NCBI RefSeq assembly: GCF_013927005.1
Contig: NZ_CP055930.1
Location: 2,480,001 to 2,544,000 of the forward strand
Direction of reading: 5' to 3'
DNA length: 64,000 nucleotides
Source: Enterobacter sp. RHBSTW-00175
GTDB taxonomy: Bacteria > Pseudomonadota > Gammaproteobacteria > Enterobacterales > Enterobacteriaceae
Part shown: one piece after another, positions 34,105 to 46,224 of the stretch
Layout of the letters: each line of letters opens with the position of its first letter
Position numbering within the stretch: the first letter of the stretch is position 1
The notes under the pieces: generated by a model
What the model saw: the letters and a program-made list of their open reading frames with translations, nothing else
Told to the model about the DNA's origin: nothing
The model's database searches: none
Program-made: the position numbers and the translations under genes

Positions 34105-34980
34105 ATGAAAATACTTCCCGTTATCTCTCCCAAAGGTGGAGAAGGCAAATCCACGTTTGCTGCTTACCTTGCCGGTTTTCTTGCCGATGCCGGCCTGAAC
34201 ACCCTTCTTGTGGATGCAGACTATTCCCAGCCCACAGCCAGCAGTATCTTCGCGCTGGAGCATGAATCCCCTTTCGGTCTCTATGAATTGCTGATGCAGA
34301 TGGTCAGTGACCATACGCAATGCATTTCGCAGACCGCCATAAAAAATCTCGATGTCATCTACTCTAACGACCCGGACGAACTGTTGCCGACCGCGATGCT
34401 CCACGCTGCAGACGGCCGTCTGCGCCTGCGTAACATACTTCAGCATCCTTTCTTTAACCGTTATGACGTCATTATTGTGGATTCGAAAGGCGCAACAGGC
34501 GTCATGACCGAGCTTTCCCTCCTTTCCTCTACCGGTAATGTGATGGGCGTTGTTAAACCCATCCTTCCGGATGTCCGTGAATTTATCCGCGGCTCCCTTC
34601 ATATGCTTACCCGCCTGAAAACCTATGAAAATTACGGTATCCGCCTTCCTGATATTTCCATTCTCGTCAACTGTATCGAAAACACTCTGCTTGACCGTGA
34701 AGCAATGGACGGTCTTGCCGCCATCATTAACGAAAAACATTACGACGCCTCTGCGCTGGGCAACCGTGACGTTTATCGTTTACTCGATACCCGTATCGAG
34801 GCGCTGGATATTTTCAAACTGGGGCACGTCAAGCAGCAGCCCGTGCATCGTCTGGAATACAAAACACGCCGCAAAGGTCCGGCCGCAGCCGTCACCATGC
34901 ACGACCTCGCGTCTGAACTGTTCCCCGAGTGGCAGAGCCATTTCAGTGACGTTCTGACCCGGGAGGTGCGTCATGTCTGA
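34105..34980 (+). CDS. parA: ParA/Soj-family ATPase of the ICE
   Basis: 291 residues from ATG 34105; a GTG at 34096 is an alternative. Deviant Walker A PKGGEGKST at the N-terminus and LLVDADYSQPTAS. First gene inside the element next to the att site, as in SPI-7/pKLC102-type islands, where the ParA homologue helps maintain the excised circle. Overlaps the DnaB gene by 8 bp. Confidence 0.92.
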   Translation: MKILPVISPKGGEGKSTFAAYLAGFLADAGLNTLLVDADYSQPTASSIFALEHESPFGLYELLMQMVSDHTQCISQTAIKNLDVIYSNDPDELLPTAMLHAADGRLRLRNILQHPFFNRYDVIIVDSKGATGVMTELSLLSSTGNVMGVVKPILPDVREFIRGSLHMLTRLKTYENYGIRLPDISILVNCIENTLLDREAMDGLAAIINEKHYDASALGNRDVYRLLDTRIEALDIFKLGHVKQQPVHRLEYKTRRKGPAAAVTMHDLASELFPEWQSHFSDVLTREVRHV

Positions 34981-36343
34981 GATGATGATGCCCTGCTCTT
35001 ATGAGGCTGAGCAGGCCGTACTGGGCGGACTGATGCTTGATAACGACCGGTGGGATGAGGTGATACTGCAAATCTCCCCGGAAGATTTGTTTTCCCGGCC
35101 GCACCGTATGGTCTTTCGCGTGATGGCCGAGCTGGCCGGAGAAGGGCTACCGCTCGATCTCATCACTATTACGGAACGGCTGGAGAACAGAGGCGACCTT
35201 GAACAGTGTGGCGGCTTTGCTTATCTGGCTGAAATGAGTAAAAACACGCCGTCTGCAGCCAATATCCTGGCATACGCCGGGGTGGTGGCGGAGAAAAGCC
35301 GCCTGCGGCAGCTGATGACTGTGGGTAACAGTCTTCTTTCCGATGTGCAAGCCCCGAAAGCCAGCTCGGCGGGCATTCTTGAGTCGGCCGAAGGTAAGTT
35401 GTTTAACATTGCCGAACAGGGAGCCATGCAGCTCAACAGTGAGACCGGTGTTAACGAGGCGCTGGATAAACTGCTGACGCAGCTGGAAAGCATGTCCGCC
35501 AGTGACGGCCTCACCGGGACACCGACAGGGTTCAGTGAACTGGACGCGATGACCTGTGGTCTCCAGCCCGGCGATCTGGCCCTGCTGGCCGCCCGTCCTT
35601 CCATGGGGAAAACGTCGCTGGCCATGGCCGCCTGCACAGCGGCCGTGAGCGCAAAACCTGACGATCACGTCTTTGTGTTCAGTCTTGAAATGCCCTCAGA
35701 GCAGCTGATGATGCGCCTGCTGGCGATGGAAGGCCGGGTGGAACTGTCCCGGCTTCGCAGCGGCAACATGGATGATGAAGACTGGGCTCGCGTGTCCGAG
35801 GCAACCGGTCGCATTATTGAGTGGAAAAACCGTCTGATCATTGATGATACCAGTTACCAGACCCCGGCCACACTGCGCGCCCGCGCCCGTCGCTATGTCC
35901 GCAAATACGGCAGACCCTCTCTCATCATGCTGGACTATCTGCAGCTTGTCCGCTCCCCCGAGCAGGAAAACCGCACGCAGGAAATAGCGGAAATTTCCCG
36001 CTCGCTTAAGGCGCTCGGTAAAGAGCTGGGCTGTCCGGTACTGGCGCTTTCCCAGCTCAACCGCCTGGTGGAGCAGCGGGCCGATAAACGCCCCAATAAT
36101 GGTGACCTGCGTGACTCCGGTGCGCTGGAGCAGGATGCGGACCTCATCATGTTTATTTACCGGGATGAGGTTTATAACCCCGGCACCCCTGATGCCGGGG
36201 TGGCTGAGATCATTGTCGGCAAGCAGCGGCAGGGGCCAACCGGCACGGTAAAAGTCAAATTTGACGGGCGTTACACCCTCTTTTCGGAGTTTCAGGAAGG
36301 CAGCTATGACTTCGGTTACCGCAGCGGGAGGAAACAGGCATGA
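34973..36343 (+). CDS. DnaB-like replicative helicase of the ICE
   Basis: 456 residues. N-terminal DnaB domain (CSYEAEQAVLGGLMLDNDRWDEV), then RecA-like motor with Walker A ARPSMGKTSLAMA and Walker B LIMLDYLQLV, and the arginine-finger region GDLRDSGALEQDADLIMFIYRDE. Likely loaded on the element's own origin for autonomous replication after excision. Overlaps parB by 4 bp. Confidence 0.94.
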   Translation: MSEMMMPCSYEAEQAVLGGLMLDNDRWDEVILQISPEDLFSRPHRMVFRVMAELAGEGLPLDLITITERLENRGDLEQCGGFAYLAEMSKNTPSAANILAYAGVVAEKSRLRQLMTVGNSLLSDVQAPKASSAGILESAEGKLFNIAEQGAMQLNSETGVNEALDKLLTQLESMSASDGLTGTPTGFSELDAMTCGLQPGDLALLAARPSMGKTSLAMAACTAAVSAKPDDHVFVFSLEMPSEQLMMRLLAMEGRVELSRLRSGNMDDEDWARVSEATGRIIEWKNRLIIDDTSYQTPATLRARARRYVRKYGRPSLIMLDYLQLVRSPEQENRTQEIAEISRSLKALGKELGCPVLALSQLNRLVEQRADKRPNNGDLRDSGALEQDADLIMFIYRDEVYNPGTPDAGVAEIIVGKQRQGPTGTVKVKFDGRYTLFSEFQEGSYDFGYRSGRKQA

Positions 36344-38040
36344 GCCGTAAAAGTTCTAATGTGGGGGCTGCCATGCTGCAGCCCGGACGCCAGTCGCAGG
36401 CGGCCGGCAATATCAGCGTCATGCCGGCGGCTGAAATGCCCATGGTCCTGACGCTCGACCAGTTAAGCCCGAATCCTGATAATCCGCGAACATCACGCAA
36501 TCCGCGTTATGACGATATCAAGGCTTCCATCCGTTCGCGCGGGCTGGACACCGTGCCCAAAGTCACCCGTGACCCGGATGGTGAGCCCGATATGTACATC
36601 TTCAGCGACGGGGGTAATACACGTTATCAGATCCTGTCAGAACTGTGGCAGGAAACCGGAGAAGACCGGTTTTTCCGCGTCCATGTGTTGTTCAAGCCGT
36701 GGCCGGGACGGCTGCAGTGTGTTATTGGCCATCTGGCAGAGAATGAAGTGCGCGGGGAGCTGAGTTTTATTGAAAAAGCGCAGGGGATCCACAAAGCCCG
36801 CTCTATATATGAAGAGCAGATGGGAAAGACGGTTTCGTTGCGTCAGTTGTCAGAGCTACTGACCCGTGAAGGTTTGCCAGTCCATTACTCAACAGTCAGC
36901 CGTATGGAAGATGCGCTGAAATATCTTTATCCGTGGATCCCAGACCTGCTTGAGTCCGGGCTTGGCAGGCCACAAATAACGTCACTGCTGGCGCTCCGGC
37001 ATGATGCGGAACGCGTGTGGGATGAGTTTTGCCTGATTTCAGACACAGGCGATAAATCCTTCAGCGACGTTTTTGGCCAGTGTTGTGGCCGTTTCAACTC
37101 CCCGGAACTGTGGTCTCTGGAGATGTTTCGCGATGAATTTATTGGTGATTTACTGCAGGCGTTACCCCATCCGGAACTGGACTATGACCGCTGGATGATG
37201 GAACTCGATCCTAAAGAACGCAACCGCAGACATCACTTTGGCGAGCCGGAGACGGTTGCCTTTCCCGCCGCAAACAAGTCTGTTAATGCTGATCACGCCC
37301 TGCATACCACAGGCTCAGATGAGAGTGAAGGCGTCCCGCTACCTGTCTCCAGTTCACGTCCTGAGGTCTCAGGAGGGGCTGTAACGCCCGTTCCGGGTAA
37401 TGCGTCTTCTCCTTCTGAAACACCGATTAATGAGCCCCCTCGGCATGAGGTTCAGCCAGATATGTACGGTGCCGCGCCGGTTATTTCAGGTGAGAGTGGG
37501 GATGTTAGCGGGCTGGTTACCCTCTCCGATGGGTACGGAGAAGAGAATGGTGGAGAAGAGGACAATGGGGAGGATGGCCTGCTTTCTCTTTTAACACCAG
37601 AACCTGAAGTTGTCCTGCAGGATGACGCGCCGGTGAGTAATGACAGCATCTGGCATGTGCCGGCCCATCAGGACGATATCGAACACCTGCAGAATACCGC
37701 TTTTCGTCTGGCATGGGAGCTGGGTGAGGTCCTTGGCTGCGAAGATGAAATTCTTCCTCAACGCGACAAGGACATGTCTGCCGGTTACGTCGGGGCAGGT
37801 GAGGTGTGTTCTGAAGCCGCCGCATTTCTGCTGGGCCTGACCGGCGAAGCGCCTGTGCTGCATCCGGCGGCAGGGGTGTGTGGTCTGCCGGAGCTTTTCA
37901 CCGGCGGCCCGGGTGAGGGGGAAGCACCTGCCCTGACAGATGAAGATGCTCTGAAACTGCTCCGCCTGATGCGCGTTATGCGCCGTCTCCGGGAGCTGCA
38001 ACGCGGTCTGAAGTACGGGGAGGATAACAGTGATGAATAA
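36340..38040 (+). CDS. parB: ParB-family protein, PFGI-1 ICE class (TIGR03764)
   Basis: 566 residues. ParB/Srx-like domain (LTLDQLSPNPDNPRTSRNPRYDDIKASIRSRGLDTVPKVTRD...SDGGNTRYQIL) followed by a helix-turn-helix (VSLRQLSELLTREGLPVHYSTVSRMEDAL), then a long acidic low-complexity linker (about 310-430) and a conserved C-terminal segment. Partitioning or regulatory partner of ParA; in ICEclc relatives a ParB-type protein takes part in switching on transfer genes. Confidence 0.92.
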   Translation: MSRKSSNVGAAMLQPGRQSQAAGNISVMPAAEMPMVLTLDQLSPNPDNPRTSRNPRYDDIKASIRSRGLDTVPKVTRDPDGEPDMYIFSDGGNTRYQILSELWQETGEDRFFRVHVLFKPWPGRLQCVIGHLAENEVRGELSFIEKAQGIHKARSIYEEQMGKTVSLRQLSELLTREGLPVHYSTVSRMEDALKYLYPWIPDLLESGLGRPQITSLLALRHDAERVWDEFCLISDTGDKSFSDVFGQCCGRFNSPELWSLEMFRDEFIGDLLQALPHPELDYDRWMMELDPKERNRRHHFGEPETVAFPAANKSVNADHALHTTGSDESEGVPLPVSSSRPEVSGGAVTPVPGNASSPSETPINEPPRHEVQPDMYGAAPVISGESGDVSGLVTLSDGYGEENGGEEDNGEDGLLSLLTPEPEVVLQDDAPVSNDSIWHVPAHQDDIEHLQNTAFRLAWELGEVLGCEDEILPQRDKDMSAGYVGAGEVCSEAAAFLLGLTGEAPVLHPAAGVCGLPELFTGGPGEGEAPALTDEDALKLLRLMRVMRRLRELQRGLKYGEDNSDE

Positions 38041-39684: not shown

Positions 39685-40923
39685 ATGAGTCTGCCTGCAG
39701 AAAGCCTGATTGCTTATACGCTGGATAAAATGAATGCCCGCCTTGCGGCCAGTCCCCGGCGGGATGATGGCAGGATACGTAACGGCCTGCTGTTTACTGG
39801 AAATGTGCATGATTCCATTCCCCGCCGGCTGTTGCTCGACACGCGGTTGTCACCACTGGACAAGATGGGCTGGATGATGATCCGGCTGTATGCACAAAAT
39901 AATGAGGGGGCGGTTTTCCCCAGCTATGACGAACTGCAGCTGCAGCTTGCCTCACCCGGAAAGGGGAAAGCCTCAAGGGAAACGGTAAGCCGCGTCCTGC
40001 TTATGCTGCGAATAACCGGCTGGCTCAGCCTCTGTAAACGCGTGCGGGATGATAAAGGGCGGGTGCGGGGGAATATCTATGCTCAGCACGATGAGCCCCT
40101 GACGTTCAGCGATGCGGAAATGCTCGACCCCCGCTTCCTTGATACGGTGGCGGATGCCTGCCTGAGTAAAAACCGGACTATCAGCCAGACCGCCCGCGAA
40201 GTGCTCGACGATATAAAAAACGACCCCACCATGCGCCATTATCGCAGCCATCTTGCGCTGATCGAATCGCGTCTGGACCGCCCACAGACGCCCAGCCAGA
40301 TGGCGAAACATCATCACCGAATACCCTGTCCCGCACCGGGTTCGGAAACCGAACTCAGTCATAAACGGCCAGGAATCGCCGCTAAAAAACAGGGTTCGGA
40401 TACCGAACTCAGTCCAGAAAGGCATAACAACTCACTAAGTTCGGAATCCGTACTGCCAGTAAAAACAGTCAGTTATGGCCGGGTTCGGAAACCGAACCAT
40501 TACGTACGTAGTATCACACACAGTGTGAATAAAAATACGTACGTACCGGGTAAACCTGTGCTTCCCGACAGTCTGCATGAACTTGTTCCGGCAGAAGATA
40601 TTGCCATGCTGACCGCACAGCTGCAGGCGTTGCCTGAGGAGCAGGCACAACTTGTGCTGCTCAGCCTGCAAAAGGTGATGGCACGCCAGCAGCTCAGCAA
40701 CCCGGTAGGCTGGTTGCTGGCCGTGATGAAGAAAGCGCGTGAGGGCAGGTTATACGCGCCCCGTCAGGGTGGCGATATATCTGACAGTGTCGGGCAAAAA
40801 ACAGTTCAGCGTCCCGAACAGCAACAATGGAAACCCGAACCACGCGCCTCTGCCCGCCCGGTATCGGAGGAAAATATCAGGGATCTGGTGAAGAAAATTC
40901 GGGAAAAAATCATAAATTCATGA
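39685..40923 (+). CDS. STY4528-family pathogenicity-island replication protein
   Basis: 412 residues, behind AAAGGAAAAATA. N-terminal winged-helix-like region (about 45-135: RRLLLDTRLSPLDKMGWMMIRLYAQNNEGAVFPSYDELQ...ASRETVSRVLLMLRITGWL), a poorly structured middle (about 215-290), and a conserved helical C-terminus (ELVPAEDIAMLTAQLQALPEEQAQLVLLSLQKVMARQQLSNPVGWLLAVMKKAREG) that also appears in plasmid and phage initiator-like proteins. Likely initiator of ICE replication. The middle segment encodes dyad repeats that look like its binding sites. Confidence 0.88.
   Translation: MSLPAESLIAYTLDKMNARLAASPRRDDGRIRNGLLFTGNVHDSIPRRLLLDTRLSPLDKMGWMMIRLYAQNNEGAVFPSYDELQLQLASPGKGKASRETVSRVLLMLRITGWLSLCKRVRDDKGRVRGNIYAQHDEPLTFSDAEMLDPRFLDTVADACLSKNRTISQTAREVLDDIKNDPTMRHYRSHLALIESRLDRPQTPSQMAKHHHRIPCPAPGSETELSHKRPGIAAKKQGSDTELSPERHNNSLSSESVLPVKTVSYGRVRKPNHYVRSITHSVNKNTYVPGKPVLPDSLHELVPAEDIAMLTAQLQALPEEQAQLVLLSLQKVMARQQLSNPVGWLLAVMKKAREGRLYAPRQGGDISDSVGQKTVQRPEQQQWKPEPRASARPVSEENIRDLVKKIREKIINS
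40340..40545. repeat. candidate origin: dyad repeats inside the replication gene
   Basis: Four dyads: GTTCGG-AAA-CCGAAC (40340-40354), GTTCGG-ATA-CCGAAC (40394-40408), GTTCGG-AAT-CCGTAC (40439-40453), GTTCGG-AAA-CCGAAC (40483-40497); starts are 54, 45 and 44 bp apart. They are followed by TACGTACGTA (40501-40510), TCACAC-ACA-GTGTGA (40514-40528) and TACGTACGTA (40536-40545), a nearly symmetric block. The fourth dyad is in a different reading frame from the other three, so the conservation is of DNA rather than protein. Layout recalls iterons of lambda-type origins lying within the initiator gene. Confidence 0.72.
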
Positions 40924-40986: not shown

Positions 40987-41061
40987 CTAAAAAGTGAGCG
41001 CTGTTGCCAGTGGCAACACTGACTAAAAAGTAAGCACTGTTGCCAGTGGCAACAGTGCTTA
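40987..41061. repeat. 36 bp-period direct repeats containing large palindromes
   Basis: Two 32 bp copies (40987-41018 and 41023-41054, 2 mismatches) each holding the palindrome TGTTGCCA-G-TGGCAACA. In the second copy symmetry extends to 14 bp arms (41033-41061). No T-run follows. Lies in the 291 bp gap between the replication gene and the TIGR03761 gene; could be operator, partition site (parS for ParB) or part of the origin. Confidence 0.75.
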
Positions 41062-41214: not shown

Positions 41215-41940
41215 ATGTCTGATGGTAAAACAAAGGGCGGAACGACCGCTTCACGAGCGGGGGCCCTACAGTCCTCTGTTAATATCCTGCTCCATACACA
41301 TTATGCAATCCGGCTTTGGGAGGGCAGGAAACGTGATGCTCCGGACGATACAGGGGTGAAAAAAAAGAGGCCTGAAATAATCAGCATGCCGCAAGCCATT
41401 GCGCGAGCTGGTAATGCTTCCCGAGACTCAGCGGCAGATAATCCCTATGCCGATATGGCTCTGGTACGGCTCGAAGAAGCCCTGCAACGAGCAACACTTA
41501 AAATTAATGAAAACTTCAGTTCACTGGATGCCATATTGTCAGCCGTACCCAAAGGGGTAACGCTCTCGGAAGTTGAATCAGCCGATCCGTTAAATGTCAG
41601 CGTTTTCAGCCGTTCACCGTTAGGATACCGGTGCGTATGGCTTCTGGTTGGATATGATCAGTTAGCAATGAAAGCTTTCCAGGCTTTTCATTACGGGCTG
41701 ATTTCGCGTTCGCAACGTGACACTATCCTGGACAATGGTGGCCATGCTGTTCGTCAGGTCTATGGCGTGATTCAGCCTTACCGAACACTTGCAGTGACTC
41801 GCCGTGATATTGCAGAAAAAACCACGCAAGGGCTTGTTGCCATTGAGCGAAATGGCGAACCTGATCCGGATGTGTTAAGCGGTAAAAAACGCTCTTCGTT
41901 CTCACCTCCGCTTAAAAACAACATAGCAGAGGAGGAATAA
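41215..41940 (+). CDS. TIGR03761 (PFL_4669) ICE protein
   Basis: 241 residues, first ATG after GAGAGGCG. Conserved core YADMALVRLEEALQRATLKINENFSSLDAILSAVPKGVTLS and SPLGYRCVWLLVGYDQLAMKAFQAFHYGLISRSQRDTIL is that of the PFL_4669 family found in the replication/maintenance block of these ICEs. Biochemical role unknown. Followed after 1 bp by the lipoprotein gene. Confidence 0.88.
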   Translation: MSDGKTKGGTTASRAGALQSSVNILLHTHYAIRLWEGRKRDAPDDTGVKKKRPEIISMPQAIARAGNASRDSAADNPYADMALVRLEEALQRATLKINENFSSLDAILSAVPKGVTLSEVESADPLNVSVFSRSPLGYRCVWLLVGYDQLAMKAFQAFHYGLISRSQRDTILDNGGHAVRQVYGVIQPYRTLAVTRRDIAEKTTQGLVAIERNGEPDPDVLSGKKRSSFSPPLKNNIAEEE

Positions 41941-42511: not shown

Positions 42512-44521
42512 ATGCAACTCTTTCTGTGTGAAAAACCCTCCCAGGCAAAGGATATTGCCCGCGTGCTGGGCATCAGCAAGCGTGAGCAGGGATTTATCAG
42601 CGGCGGTAACATCGTTGTGACCTGGGCGGTCGGCCATTTACTCGAAACTGCCAGCCCTGAAGCCTATGGCGAGCAGTATGGCAGGCCGTGGCGTGCCGAT
42701 GTTCTGCCTGTGCTGCCTGAGGCCTGGAAAATGGTCGTCAAGGAGCAGACAAAATCGCAGTTCACTGTTATCAGTAAGCTGCTCAAAAAGGCCTCTGAGG
42801 TGGTCATCGCCACCGATGCCGACCGCGAGGGCGAGGTGATCGCGCGTGAGCTGCTGGAATACTGCCGCTACAGTGGCGCGGTACGCCGGCTCTGGTTGTC
42901 AGCCCTGGATGAGGCCAGTGTGAAGGAAGCACTGGGCAATATTCTTCCCGGAGAAAAAACAGCCCTGCTGTACGATGCCGGCAAGGGCCGGAGCCAGGCT
43001 GACTGGCTCATCGGTATGAACCTGACCCGCCTTTATACTCTCAAGGCCCGTGACTCAGGGGTGTCAGAAGTGCTGTCCGTCGGGCGGGTACAGACGCCGA
43101 CGCTTGCCATGGTGGTTAACCGGGATAATGAAATTACGTCCTTCGTGCCAAAGCCCTGGTGGCAGGTACATGCGCTTATTGAAAAAGAGGGCGTCCGGTT
43201 CCGGGCTGGCTGGGTGCCCGTTGAGCAGTACTGTGATGAGGAAAAGCGTTGCATCAATCCTCAGGCTGCCCGGGCGGTGGGACAGCTGTGTCAGCAGCAG
43301 GGCAGGGCTGCGGTACTGGAGGTGACACAGAAGCGGGAGAAAACGGCGGCACCCCTCTGTTTTGACCTGGGCACCCTTCAGCAGGTCTGTTCCCGAAAAT
43401 TCGGCATGGGCGCAAATGATGTGCTCGCCATTGCTCAGTCACTTTACGAAACCCACAAAGCGACCACCTACCCCCGTACAGACTGCGGTTTTCTGCCAAC
43501 TTCCATGCAGCAGGAAATATCCGACGTGCTGGCGGCAGTGGCGAAATCCGATCCGGCTGTGGCCCCGGTACTGAATCAGCTGGACAGGCAGTTTGTCTCG
43601 CGTGTCTGGAATGACAAAAAAATCACCGCGCACCATGCCATCATTCCCACCCGACAGGCATTTGATTTGTCACGCCTCAGCGCCGATGAGCTGAAGGTCT
43701 ACCAGCTGATTCGCCAGCATTATTTCGCCCAGTTCCTTCCGCTGCAGGAATCTGACGTGACGGAGGCCTCTTTCAATATCGGTGGACAGCTGTTCCGTAC
43801 ACGCGGGAAAGTCGGTGTGGTGACGGGCTGGAAGTCATTGTTCCTGGCTGAAAAAGATGACGATGAAGAGGACGTCGACGGTGACAGTATGGCGCTGCCG
43901 GCGCTGGCAAAAGGGGATATTTGCGCTGTCACCGGTTCTGAGGTTAAGGATATGAAAACCAGTCCGCCCAAACCGTTCACGGAGGGGACGCTGATTGCTG
44001 CCATGAAGAACGCGGCCAGTTTCGTCAGTGACCCGAAGCTGAAGAAAGTGCTGCGTGATAACGCCGGTCTGGGCACAGAGGCGACGCGTGCGGCCGTGCT
44101 TGAAACCCTCTTCAAACGACACTATCTGGAGAAAAAAGGGAAGCACATCCACTCAACGCAGATGGCCCGGGAGCTGATTGCGGCCCTGCCGGAAACGCTG
44201 ACGAGCCCGGGCATGACCGCATTATGGGAGCAGGCACTGGATGATATTTCGCAGGGGAAAATGTCGCTTGCGGTCTTTATGCAAAAGCAGCTGCAGTGGA
44301 CCCGTCACCTTGTCGAAAAAGGCCGCCAGGACAGTGTGAAAATTACTGCTCCCGTCACGCCTCCCTGCCCGTTATGCAAAGGACCCCCGCGTAAACGTAA
44401 AGGTAAAAATGGTGATTTTGGGGGGTGCATACGCTATCCGGACTGTGAGGGAATTATCAGTACAGGTAAGAAGAAAGCAGCGAAGCGTAAAAAAACATCG
44501 GTTAAGGCTAAAACAGAATAA
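42512..44521 (+). CDS. topB: DNA topoisomerase III
   Basis: 669 residues, type IA. Toprim motif IATDADREGEVIAREL, active-site tyrosine in TTYPRTDC, central gate domain with GMNLTRLYT and SVGRVQTPTLAMVV, and one C-terminal zinc ribbon (CPLC ... CIRYPDC). Decatenates replicating or transferred element DNA. Typical member of the SPI-7-class core. A run of non-coding DNA follows. Confidence 0.95.
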   Translation: MQLFLCEKPSQAKDIARVLGISKREQGFISGGNIVVTWAVGHLLETASPEAYGEQYGRPWRADVLPVLPEAWKMVVKEQTKSQFTVISKLLKKASEVVIATDADREGEVIARELLEYCRYSGAVRRLWLSALDEASVKEALGNILPGEKTALLYDAGKGRSQADWLIGMNLTRLYTLKARDSGVSEVLSVGRVQTPTLAMVVNRDNEITSFVPKPWWQVHALIEKEGVRFRAGWVPVEQYCDEEKRCINPQAARAVGQLCQQQGRAAVLEVTQKREKTAAPLCFDLGTLQQVCSRKFGMGANDVLAIAQSLYETHKATTYPRTDCGFLPTSMQQEISDVLAAVAKSDPAVAPVLNQLDRQFVSRVWNDKKITAHHAIIPTRQAFDLSRLSADELKVYQLIRQHYFAQFLPLQESDVTEASFNIGGQLFRTRGKVGVVTGWKSLFLAEKDDDEEDVDGDSMALPALAKGDICAVTGSEVKDMKTSPPKPFTEGTLIAAMKNAASFVSDPKLKKVLRDNAGLGTEATRAAVLETLFKRHYLEKKGKHIHSTQMARELIAALPETLTSPGMTALWEQALDDISQGKMSLAVFMQKQLQWTRHLVEKGRQDSVKITAPVTPPCPLCKGPPRKRKGKNGDFGGCIRYPDCEGIISTGKKKAAKRKKTSVKAKTE

Positions 44522-45156: not shown

Positions 45157-45627
45157 ATGTCTGCAAACAATACTTCTGCATCTGCAAAATCTGAGTACTT
45201 CAACCTGACTATTAAAGGCATCGGGTATCTCAGCAACATCCGCCAGGTTAACCATCAGAATGGCTCGTTCCTCAGCTGCGTAATCAATGCACTGAGCGGT
45301 CCGACTGACAATCCGGCCTACGTCCGTTTTGACATTTCTGTCGCAGGTAAAGAGGCTACCAGCCTTATCGCCCGCTGCCAGAAAGCCGTCGATGAAGACA
45401 AAAAAGTCCTGCTGGGCTTTAACCTGAGTAATCCGTCCACGGACATATTTACGCTGAACAAGGGCGAGCATGCCGGCGAACAGCGTGTCAGTCTGAAAGC
45501 CCGCCTGATAAAGGTGGACTGGATCAAAATAGGCCAGGACATGGTCTACAAGACTGAAAAATCTGACTCCGTGCCGCCGCAGAATGGCTCTGCCGCACAA
45601 CAAAACTACGCAGAAAACTCATTCTGA
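45157..45627 (+). CDS. STY4534-family ICE replication protein (DUF3577)
   Basis: 156 residues, ATG after ATGGAGAA. Core EYFNLTIKGIGYLSNIRQVNHQNGSFLSCVINALSG...YVRFDISVAGKEATSLI looks like an OB-fold, and the tail is Gln/Asn rich. Family known from SPI-7 and PAPI-type islands, next to ssb, suggesting a single-stranded-DNA role. Followed by an intrinsic terminator before ssb. Confidence 0.88.
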   Translation: MSANNTSASAKSEYFNLTIKGIGYLSNIRQVNHQNGSFLSCVINALSGPTDNPAYVRFDISVAGKEATSLIARCQKAVDEDKKVLLGFNLSNPSTDIFTLNKGEHAGEQRVSLKARLIKVDWIKIGQDMVYKTEKSDSVPPQNGSAAQQNYAENSF

Positions 45628-45665: not shown

Positions 45666-45687
45666 ATTCTTTACAGGAGAAATGATT

Positions 45688-46224
45688 ATGTCCTCACGCG
45701 GCGTTAACAAGGTGATTCTTGTCGGTAATCTCGGCCAGGATCCTGAAGTGCGTTATATTCCCAATGGCAGTGCAGTTGCCACCCTTTCTCTGGCCACGTC
45801 TGAGAGCTGGCGTGATAAGCAGTCCGGTGAACAGAAAGAAGTGACCGAATGGCACCGGGTGGTTATTTTCGGCAAGCTGGCAGAAATTGCGGGTGAATAT
45901 CTGCGCAAAGGCTCCCAGGTTTACATCGAGGGCCAGCTGCGCACACGCAAATGGACCGATCAGTCTGGCCAGGAGAAATACATCACAGAGGTGGTGGTAA
46001 ACATTGGTGGCACCATGCAGATGCTTGGCGGTCGCCAGTCCGGCAGCGGTCAGAATACGTCTTCCCGGAATGACTGGGGCCAGCCTCAGCAACCTTCCGG
46101 ACCGACTCACAGTGGCCAGGCTTCCGGCAGCAGTGCCGGTGCGCCACCGATGGACTTCGATGACGATATACCGTTCATTGGATTCGGGTATGGAGTACCA
46201 AAATCGGCAATCCATGCACTCTGA
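45688..46224 (+). CDS. ssb: single-stranded DNA-binding protein with extended C-terminus
   Basis: 178 residues from ATG 45688 ([23 protein letters not shown]); an ATG 6 bases earlier overlaps the AGGAG site and is rejected. OB-fold domain to about 112, Gly/Gln/Ser linker, then MDFDDDIPF, the acidic tip that binds partner proteins in chromosomal SSB, here followed by 15 more residues ([15 protein letters not shown]). Extended tips of this kind occur in some phage and ICE SSBs and would alter partner choice. Confidence 0.93.

Follow-up and report, generated by a model that had tools for sequence, protein, structure and literature searches.

A candidate replication origin within the gene of an STY4528-family protein from SPI-7/PFGI-1-type integrative and conjugative elements

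Where does replication of an integrative and conjugative element (ICE) of the SPI-7/PFGI-1 type begin, and which protein begins it? The question is raised by a gene of the STY4528 family in Enterobacter sp. RHBSTW-00175, whose coding sequence contains four short palindromes. The gene belongs to a window of 64,000 nt (contig NZ_CP055930.1, positions 2,480,001–2,544,000, forward strand), the whole stretch of DNA analysed here. Among elements of this kind, pKLC102 has been described as replicating in the form of a circle, at up to 30 copies (PMC7685784), and PAPI-1 and ICEHin1056 have also been described as replicating circles (PMC4489591). We propose, with a probability of about 0.78, that the STY4528-family protein is the replication initiator of the ICE and that the replication origin (oriV) lies inside the protein's own gene. 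Judging from the nucleotide and protein sequences, the intragenic palindromes would most likely constitute this origin, in an arrangement like those of plasmid pSK41 (RepA_N) and of lambda O/ori.

The four palindromes (dyads) follow the pattern GTTCGG-N3-CCGAAC and all sit in the linker-coding part of the gene. Their starts are spaced by 54, 45 and 44 bp, as a preliminary description of this DNA had reported, and its remark that the last dyad is out of frame with the other three also proved right: relative to the ATG at 39685, the frames of dyads 1–4 are +1, +1, +1 and 0. When up to two mismatches are allowed, a shuffled 64-kb window yields 3.3 matches on average, so that a bare count of four is not unusual. 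At the same threshold, however, the four matches of the real window (three of them exact) are all within the STY4528 gene, with none elsewhere in the 64 kb, and apart from the three in this gene the host genome (5.57 Mb) has no perfect copy. Genome-wide, the lenient pattern (up to two mismatches) was not enriched, with 140 forward matches versus 199 for the reversed control. When the gene's synonymous codons were permuted 2000 times, a family of four dyads arose 5 times, and 35 permutations contained at least one perfect GTTCGG dyad. Stronger evidence than these chance statistics comes from the comparison with relatives.

Relatives were fetched by protein; 83 were found and 80 kept, showing 46–100% identity in the best segment. 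Of these, 72 have dyads that deviate from the pattern by no more than one mismatch, invariably inside the STY4528 gene, and the fetched loci, which extend to as much as 9.3 kb, hold no such dyad outside that gene. In the remaining eight, the half-sites are of the GTCCGG or GTTCGA type, with both arms altered, at matching positions or at spacings obtained by adding members of the 54/45/44 set; L082 is degenerate, and L087 has one dyad and a short reading frame. The commonest full spacing sets in Enterobacterales were 54/45/44, 33/45/44 and 42/45/44. Pseudomonas relatives, among them those in pKLC102 and P. veronii (about 31–35% protein identity), have the same dyad, spaced 44/54/44, in frames f2,f1,f1,f0 as opposed to f1,f1,f1,f0 in the Enterobacter window. 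Helical phasing of the spacings is modest, the observed value being reached by 80 of 5000 random sets.

The same stretch is constrained at synonymous positions. In a codon alignment of 76 sequences, 72 of them distinct (the short or frameshifted L068, L073, L083, L084 and L087 were left out), residues 219–288, which span the dyads and a symmetric block beside them, hold 25 of the 30 most frozen synonymous codons, the remainder being at residues 7, 62, 102, 111 and 345. For V274 and R275, all 72 sequences use one and the same codon, where a pairwise identity of 0.26 and 0.20, respectively, would be expected. Since the frames differ among relatives and the synonymous sites are frozen, protein conservation cannot explain the dyads, which bears out what the preliminary description had argued from the single out-of-frame copy. 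The check it had suggested, i.e., whether the dyads are kept when the protein segment diverges, was made: they are retained, in differing frames, and where they do change, both arms change together and jointly with the recognition helix of the protein.

Some loci depart from the usual arrangement. In L068, L073, L083 and L084 the reading frame ends early and yet the dyads are present, pointing to a frameshift or an assembly error; the spacing in L084 is 55/45/45. Serratia microhaemolytica (L019, 4689–4909) has six dyads rather than four, a possible iteron expansion. In L110 (1819–1950) there are four TTGCCC-type dyads spaced 23–46, and the protein matches only the later part of the family profile (154–321, E 2.8e-6); it is perhaps a related initiator with another DNA-binding domain.

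The helix in question lies in the N-terminal half of the protein and reads S97-R98-E99-T100-V101-S102-R103. It is CRP-like, with weak Pfam matches below the cut-off in the window protein or its relatives (HTH_Crp_2, best E 0.0021; HTH_36, 0.023; Crp), and by comparison with CRP we take residues 98, 99 and 103 to be those that contact bases. The calling of half-sites in the linker took no account of the protein; the calls were then tabulated against the helix. The first table comprised 121 loci with a complete helix, 108 of which had at least two dyads (plus strands only); the rows are not independent, as several loci come from one strain (e.g., L028/L029/L042). Across the 108 loci, R98 was accompanied by G at base 1 in 78 cases and by A in 3, K98 by G in 7, and H98 by C in 14 and T in 1; among the rarer residues, E98 went with C (2), N98 with G (1) or C (1), and T98 with A (1). 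With E99, base 5 was G and base 3 was T in 93 of 93 loci each; D99 had C at base 3 in 5 of 5, and K99 had C (3) or A (1) at base 5. The half-site rule that emerges is that E99 goes with GTTCGG, D99 with GTCCGG, H98 with CTTCGG and K99 mostly with GTTCCA.

Residue 99 also stands out when the whole protein is scanned. Positions 99 and 178 are the only ones among the 412 that separate the GTCCGG sequences from the rest without error (78 sequences; L073, L083 and L084 left out). A quick tree computed with the helix columns removed places the combination of D99 and GTCCGG in two separate clades, one with L062, L064, L074 and L086 and the other with L085, whose neighbour L072 has G99 and GTTCGA. Independent tree pairs were concordant in, on average, 2.4 of 3, 0.8 of 2 and 2 of 2 cases and discordant in none, some long branches being placed unsurely.

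A second table was made of loci that were added after the rule had been noted, or that lay on the minus strand. A match was obtained for 60 of 70, with a complete helix in 50 and at least two dyads in 35; the table was not fully blind, because L089 and L099 had been examined before the rule was noted, and L201/L214, L133/L146 and L203/L212 are likely duplicate genes. The base-1 prediction held for 29 of 33 loci with a predicted class (L171 and L187 have none at residue 98), the misses being L099, L202, L206 and L207. E99 was found with G at base 5 in 20 of 20 loci and D99 with C at base 3 in 1 of 1. GTTCCA accompanied K99 in 7 of 11 loci; as to the other four, L187 has a different helix, with AGGACA, and L202, L206 and L207 gave GTTCCA-like dyads on a direct search (up to two mismatches).

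The sites, their conservation as DNA and their covariation with the recognition helix are supported by these data. Because half-site changes follow the helix and the dyads are retained in other frames, the dyads are a predicted binding site for the encoded protein, and the STY4528-family protein very likely binds dyads lying in its own gene.

Directly past the last dyad there is a GTA/TAC-rich inverted repeat around an A/T-rich centre, the near-symmetric block that the preliminary description had placed there. Exact TCACAC-N3-GTGTGA arms follow the last dyad in 48 of the 80 relatives (by hand count), and most of the others have altered middles between ACGTACGT-like arms; elsewhere the arms read CAGTACAGTAC..GTACTGTACTG, as in ICEhin1056, or GTAGTAGTA..TACTACTAC, as in other relatives. 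In 128 of 139 loci (L206, L207, L214 and genes shorter than 900 nt left out), the 60-nt segment of the gene that is richest in GTA/TAC starts between -30 and +60 relative to the last dyad; five of the 11 that fail are Xenorhabdus. At 93 of the 139 loci, the observed GTA/TAC count was reached by no more than 5 of 100 synonymous shuffles. An earlier, directional GTA..TAC test was positive in only 77 of 108 loci and the direction-free statistic was picked after it, so the latter figures are to be taken as descriptive. The block may well be a melting or loading element.

Physical binding, dimer formation, melting, helicase loading and origin activity are what we infer from these patterns, and they can be assembled into a tentative scheme. 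The oriV would be contained in the stretch encoding the linker between the N-terminal CRP-like winged helix and the C-terminal domain. Dimers of the STY4528-family protein would bind the four dyads through recognition-helix residues 98, 99 and probably 103, and the bound array would open or present the GTA/TAC inverted block beside it. Loading of the element's own DnaB-like helicase would take place at this block, with the assistance of the single-stranded DNA-binding protein (SSB) and topoisomerase III, and the excised circle would then replicate.

The genetic surroundings are those of a replication module (Table 1). The window protein scores 421 bits against NCBIfam NF040582 ('pathogenicity island replication protein'), whose curated cut-off is 130, and is thereby a member of the STY4528 family; against Pfam it gave nothing significant, the sole match at E up to 1 being Crp (E 0.26). 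An island DnaB, a ParB, PFL_4669, topoisomerase III, STY4534 and an SSB adjoin the STY4528 gene, which identifies an ICE replication module of the SPI-7/PFGI-1 type; the STY4528, DnaB-like helicase and SSB labels given in the preliminary description were borne out by profile matches. The gene tables covering pKLC102 (100 of 103.5 kb), ICEhin1056 and pZDHY95-VIM-2, which are incomplete and include many hypothetical proteins, name no initiator candidate other than the STY4528 protein.

Table 1. Positions in the window of the dyads, the associated palindromes and the genes of the replication module.
Feature	Position	Strand	Remarks
STY4528-family replication protein gene, proposed initiator	39685..40923	+	412 aa; NCBIfam NF040582
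Codons of residues 97-103 (SRETVSR), predicted CRP-like winged-helix recognition helix	39973..39993	+	weak sub-cut-off Pfam matches; covariation with dyads
Dyad 1, GTTCGG-AAA-CCGAAC	40340..40354	+	perfect
Dyad 2, GTTCGG-ATA-CCGAAC	40394..40408	+	perfect
Dyad 3, GTTCGG-AAT-CCGTAC = GTTCGGAATCCGTAC	40439..40453	+	one mismatch
Dyad 4, GTTCGG-AAA-CCGAAC	40483..40497	+	perfect; reading frame differs from dyads 1-3
Symmetric block TACGTACGTA / TCACAC-N3-GTGTGA / TACGTACGTA	40501..40545	.	proposed melting or helicase-loading element
Block arms TACGTACGTA	40501-40510 and 40536-40545		
Block middle TCACACACAGTGTGA	40514-40528		
Second array, two TGTTGCCAGTGGCAACA palindromes	41002-41018 and 41038-41054	.	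starts 36 bp apart; between STY4528 gene and PFL_4669
SPI-7-type island DnaB-like helicase	34973..36343	+	NF040583
ParB-family protein of PFGI-1-like elements	36340..38040	+	TIGR03764
PFL_4669-family ICE protein	41215..41940	+	TIGR03761; next long gene downstream of STY4528 gene
DNA topoisomerase III	42512..44521	+	profile match
STY4534-family ICE replication protein	45157..45627	+	NF040584
Single-stranded DNA-binding protein	45682..46224	+	profile match

An origin inside the gene of its own initiator has precedents. In pSK41, four Rep boxes located midway along rep are bound by the winged-helix N-terminal domain of the protein, and the stretch encoded by the origin is a linker (PMC5703833). 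The STY4528 gene resembles this RepA_N system in that the boxes are central in the initiator gene, binding being a prediction here; it differs in that its boxes are palindromes, mostly 33–56 bp apart, and are joined by the GTA/TAC block and by an element-encoded DnaB-like helicase. RepA_N (PF06970) was not among the Pfam matches of the window protein (E up to 1), of 39 family members (E up to 0.1) or of 10 relatives (E up to 0.5), so that the STY4528 protein may work like RepA_N proteins by analogy without being one of them by sequence. As for lambda, its record annotates four iterons inside the O gene, and the STY4528 gene likewise holds iteron-like sites; the lambda iterons, however, start 20–24 bp apart, unlike the STY4528 dyads. 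A profile comparison (hhalign) with lambda O revealed no homology (probability 0.15%), and the parallel with lambda O drawn in the preliminary description accordingly stands for the architecture, with sites within the initiator gene, and not for detectable sequence homology. A remote kinship may exist, the N-terminal part having a weak match (E 0.011) to the PHROGs category 'replication initiation O-like'. Neither did the protein qualify as a RepC of the repABC type: RP-C_C matches stayed below the cut-off and were obtained for just 4 of the 39 members (best E 0.036) and for L119 (E 0.045). A sequence search of the PDB returned no match. ICEBs1 is comparable as an ICE that replicates autonomously, but it does so from its transfer origin (oriT), with the relaxase NicK as initiator (PMC4489591), whereas a dedicated intragenic oriV is proposed here. 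Altogether, the proposed origin would belong to an established type, intragenic as in pSK41 or lambda, and would be served by an initiator that is not detectably related to either by sequence and that follows a recognition rule.

A rival candidate is the second palindrome array, downstream of the gene. Its units are 36, 57, 39 or other lengths in relatives, and the largest array, in pKLC102, has 12 palindromes, mostly 57 bp apart. If the true origin were this array, ahead of PFL_4669, with the intragenic dyads as accessories, one could account for the published putative oriV of PFGI-1, which includes both arrays (PMC2647930), as well as for the size of the pKLC102 array. We regard this as unlikely: the loci with two or more downstream copies number no more than 80 of 120, a figure that includes some runs of A, intragenic dyads or other chance families, and fewer than two copies were found in 40 of 120; moreover, the downstream half-site varies independently of the STY4528 helix, while the intragenic dyads covary with the only initiator candidate. 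The downstream array probably binds something other than the STY4528 protein.

The dyads could also be operators by which the protein controls its own gene or those nearby, by roadblock or looping, without any origin. The recognition helix is CRP-like, albeit through weak matches, and CRP-like proteins are mostly regulators; but the array is about 650 bp inside the gene, and the coupled GTA/TAC block and the neighbouring replication genes would be left unexplained. Moreover, with no further match (up to two mismatches) in the window, no promoter there carries a dyad, and the perfect copies in the genome are these only, the same two observations on which we discarded a regulator with a regulon. 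The operator explanation therefore seems rather unlikely. A partition (parS-like) site, or some other site for another ICE protein such as ParB or a DUF2857 protein, would fit with parB being upstream in the same module, yet in a comparison made with the STY4528 helix alone the half-site changes track that protein's own recognition helix, which makes this quite improbable. Hardly credible, finally, is the view that the dyads reflect a repeat in the peptide, such as GSETELS, that is maintained for the sake of the protein. Three of the four window dyads do share a frame, and two encode GSETELS and GSDTELS; however, frames differ within and between elements, both arms change together and the linker peptide diverges. 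We consider this explanation refuted as the main one by the differing frames and the frozen synonymous sites.

Several observations nevertheless weigh against an origin at the dyads. The GC skew of three records does not mark the site: the skew minimum is ~14.6 kb away in ICEhin1056, the only record with a significant amplitude (p 0.002), ~57 kb away in pKLC102 (p 0.29), and 1.4 kb away in pZDHY95, which is not significant (p 0.23). Plasmid pPant4, which has an STY4528 gene, also encodes a separate replication initiation protein, and this second Rep weakens the use of free plasmids as proof of the origin. The counterpart of the downstream array belongs to the published putative oriV of PFGI-1 (PMC2647930), and the block, at 60% AT (gene 45%), is not the most AT-rich part of the gene. 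As regards the recognition rule, independent helix changes are few, hence sign tests on the tree cannot reach 0.05; residues other than E, D or K at position 99 go with no consistent base 5 (A99 with A or T, G99 with G or A); fewer than two dyads were found in 13 of 121 loci of the first set and 15 of 50 of the second; and all eight relatives with an STSTISR or STSTVSR helix are without a repeated dyad, which the model leaves unexplained. The literature passages, moreover, contained no binding or replication experiment on the STY4528 protein or the dyads. Hence, where the preliminary description had seen an origin embedded in the ICE replication gene, a binding site for the encoded protein is very likely on account of the covariation and conservation, whereas the origin itself is a presumption that GC skew does not favour.

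The annotated start of the pPant4 STY4528 gene (L123, 22357–23418) lies inside a longer homologous frame, the match extending to 23532.

Part of this picture has been published. The same palindrome, in four copies, makes up half of the putative oriV that Mavrodi 2009 placed upstream of PFL_4669 in PFGI-1, an element said in the same source to encode no Rep protein (PMC2647930), and a full-text search for the palindrome core TTCGGAATCCGAA retrieved only that paper from the collection searched. Juhas 2007 reported an iteron-like putative oriV in ICEHin1056 (PMC2258188). In Juhas 2013, ICEHin1056 orf5 is listed as an ssb homologue and a figure legend refers to mutants of orf3, 4, 9, 10, 11 and 12 (PMC3739013); from its order and size, orf5 would be the STY4528 gene. 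The name 'STY4528' occurs in literature on P. aeruginosa strains. None of the passages seen links the dyads to the protein encoded around them, although Klockgether 2004 (pKLC102) may already describe part of this. Whereas the palindrome within a putative oriV was already known, the initiator proposed here, the rule of recognition and the placement inside the gene are new.

Going further, STY4528 proteins might form a distinct class of initiators with an evolvable CRP-like code, each reading palindromes in its own coding sequence, the GTA/TAC block taking the place of an AT-rich element for opening and DnaB loading. This would be a common, oriT-independent system of SPI-7/PAPI-1/pKLC102/ICEHin1056 islands, with incompatibility groups defined by the recognition residues. 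We hold this wider view only tentatively, at slightly less than even odds.

If the proposal is right, much of the family gains an identified initiator and binding site, together with base-by-residue predictions that are testable in vitro. Elements could then be sorted into incompatibility groups from their sequence, and the STY4528 gene would be a further clear example of a single gene in which a DNA site has coevolved with the protein encoded around it.
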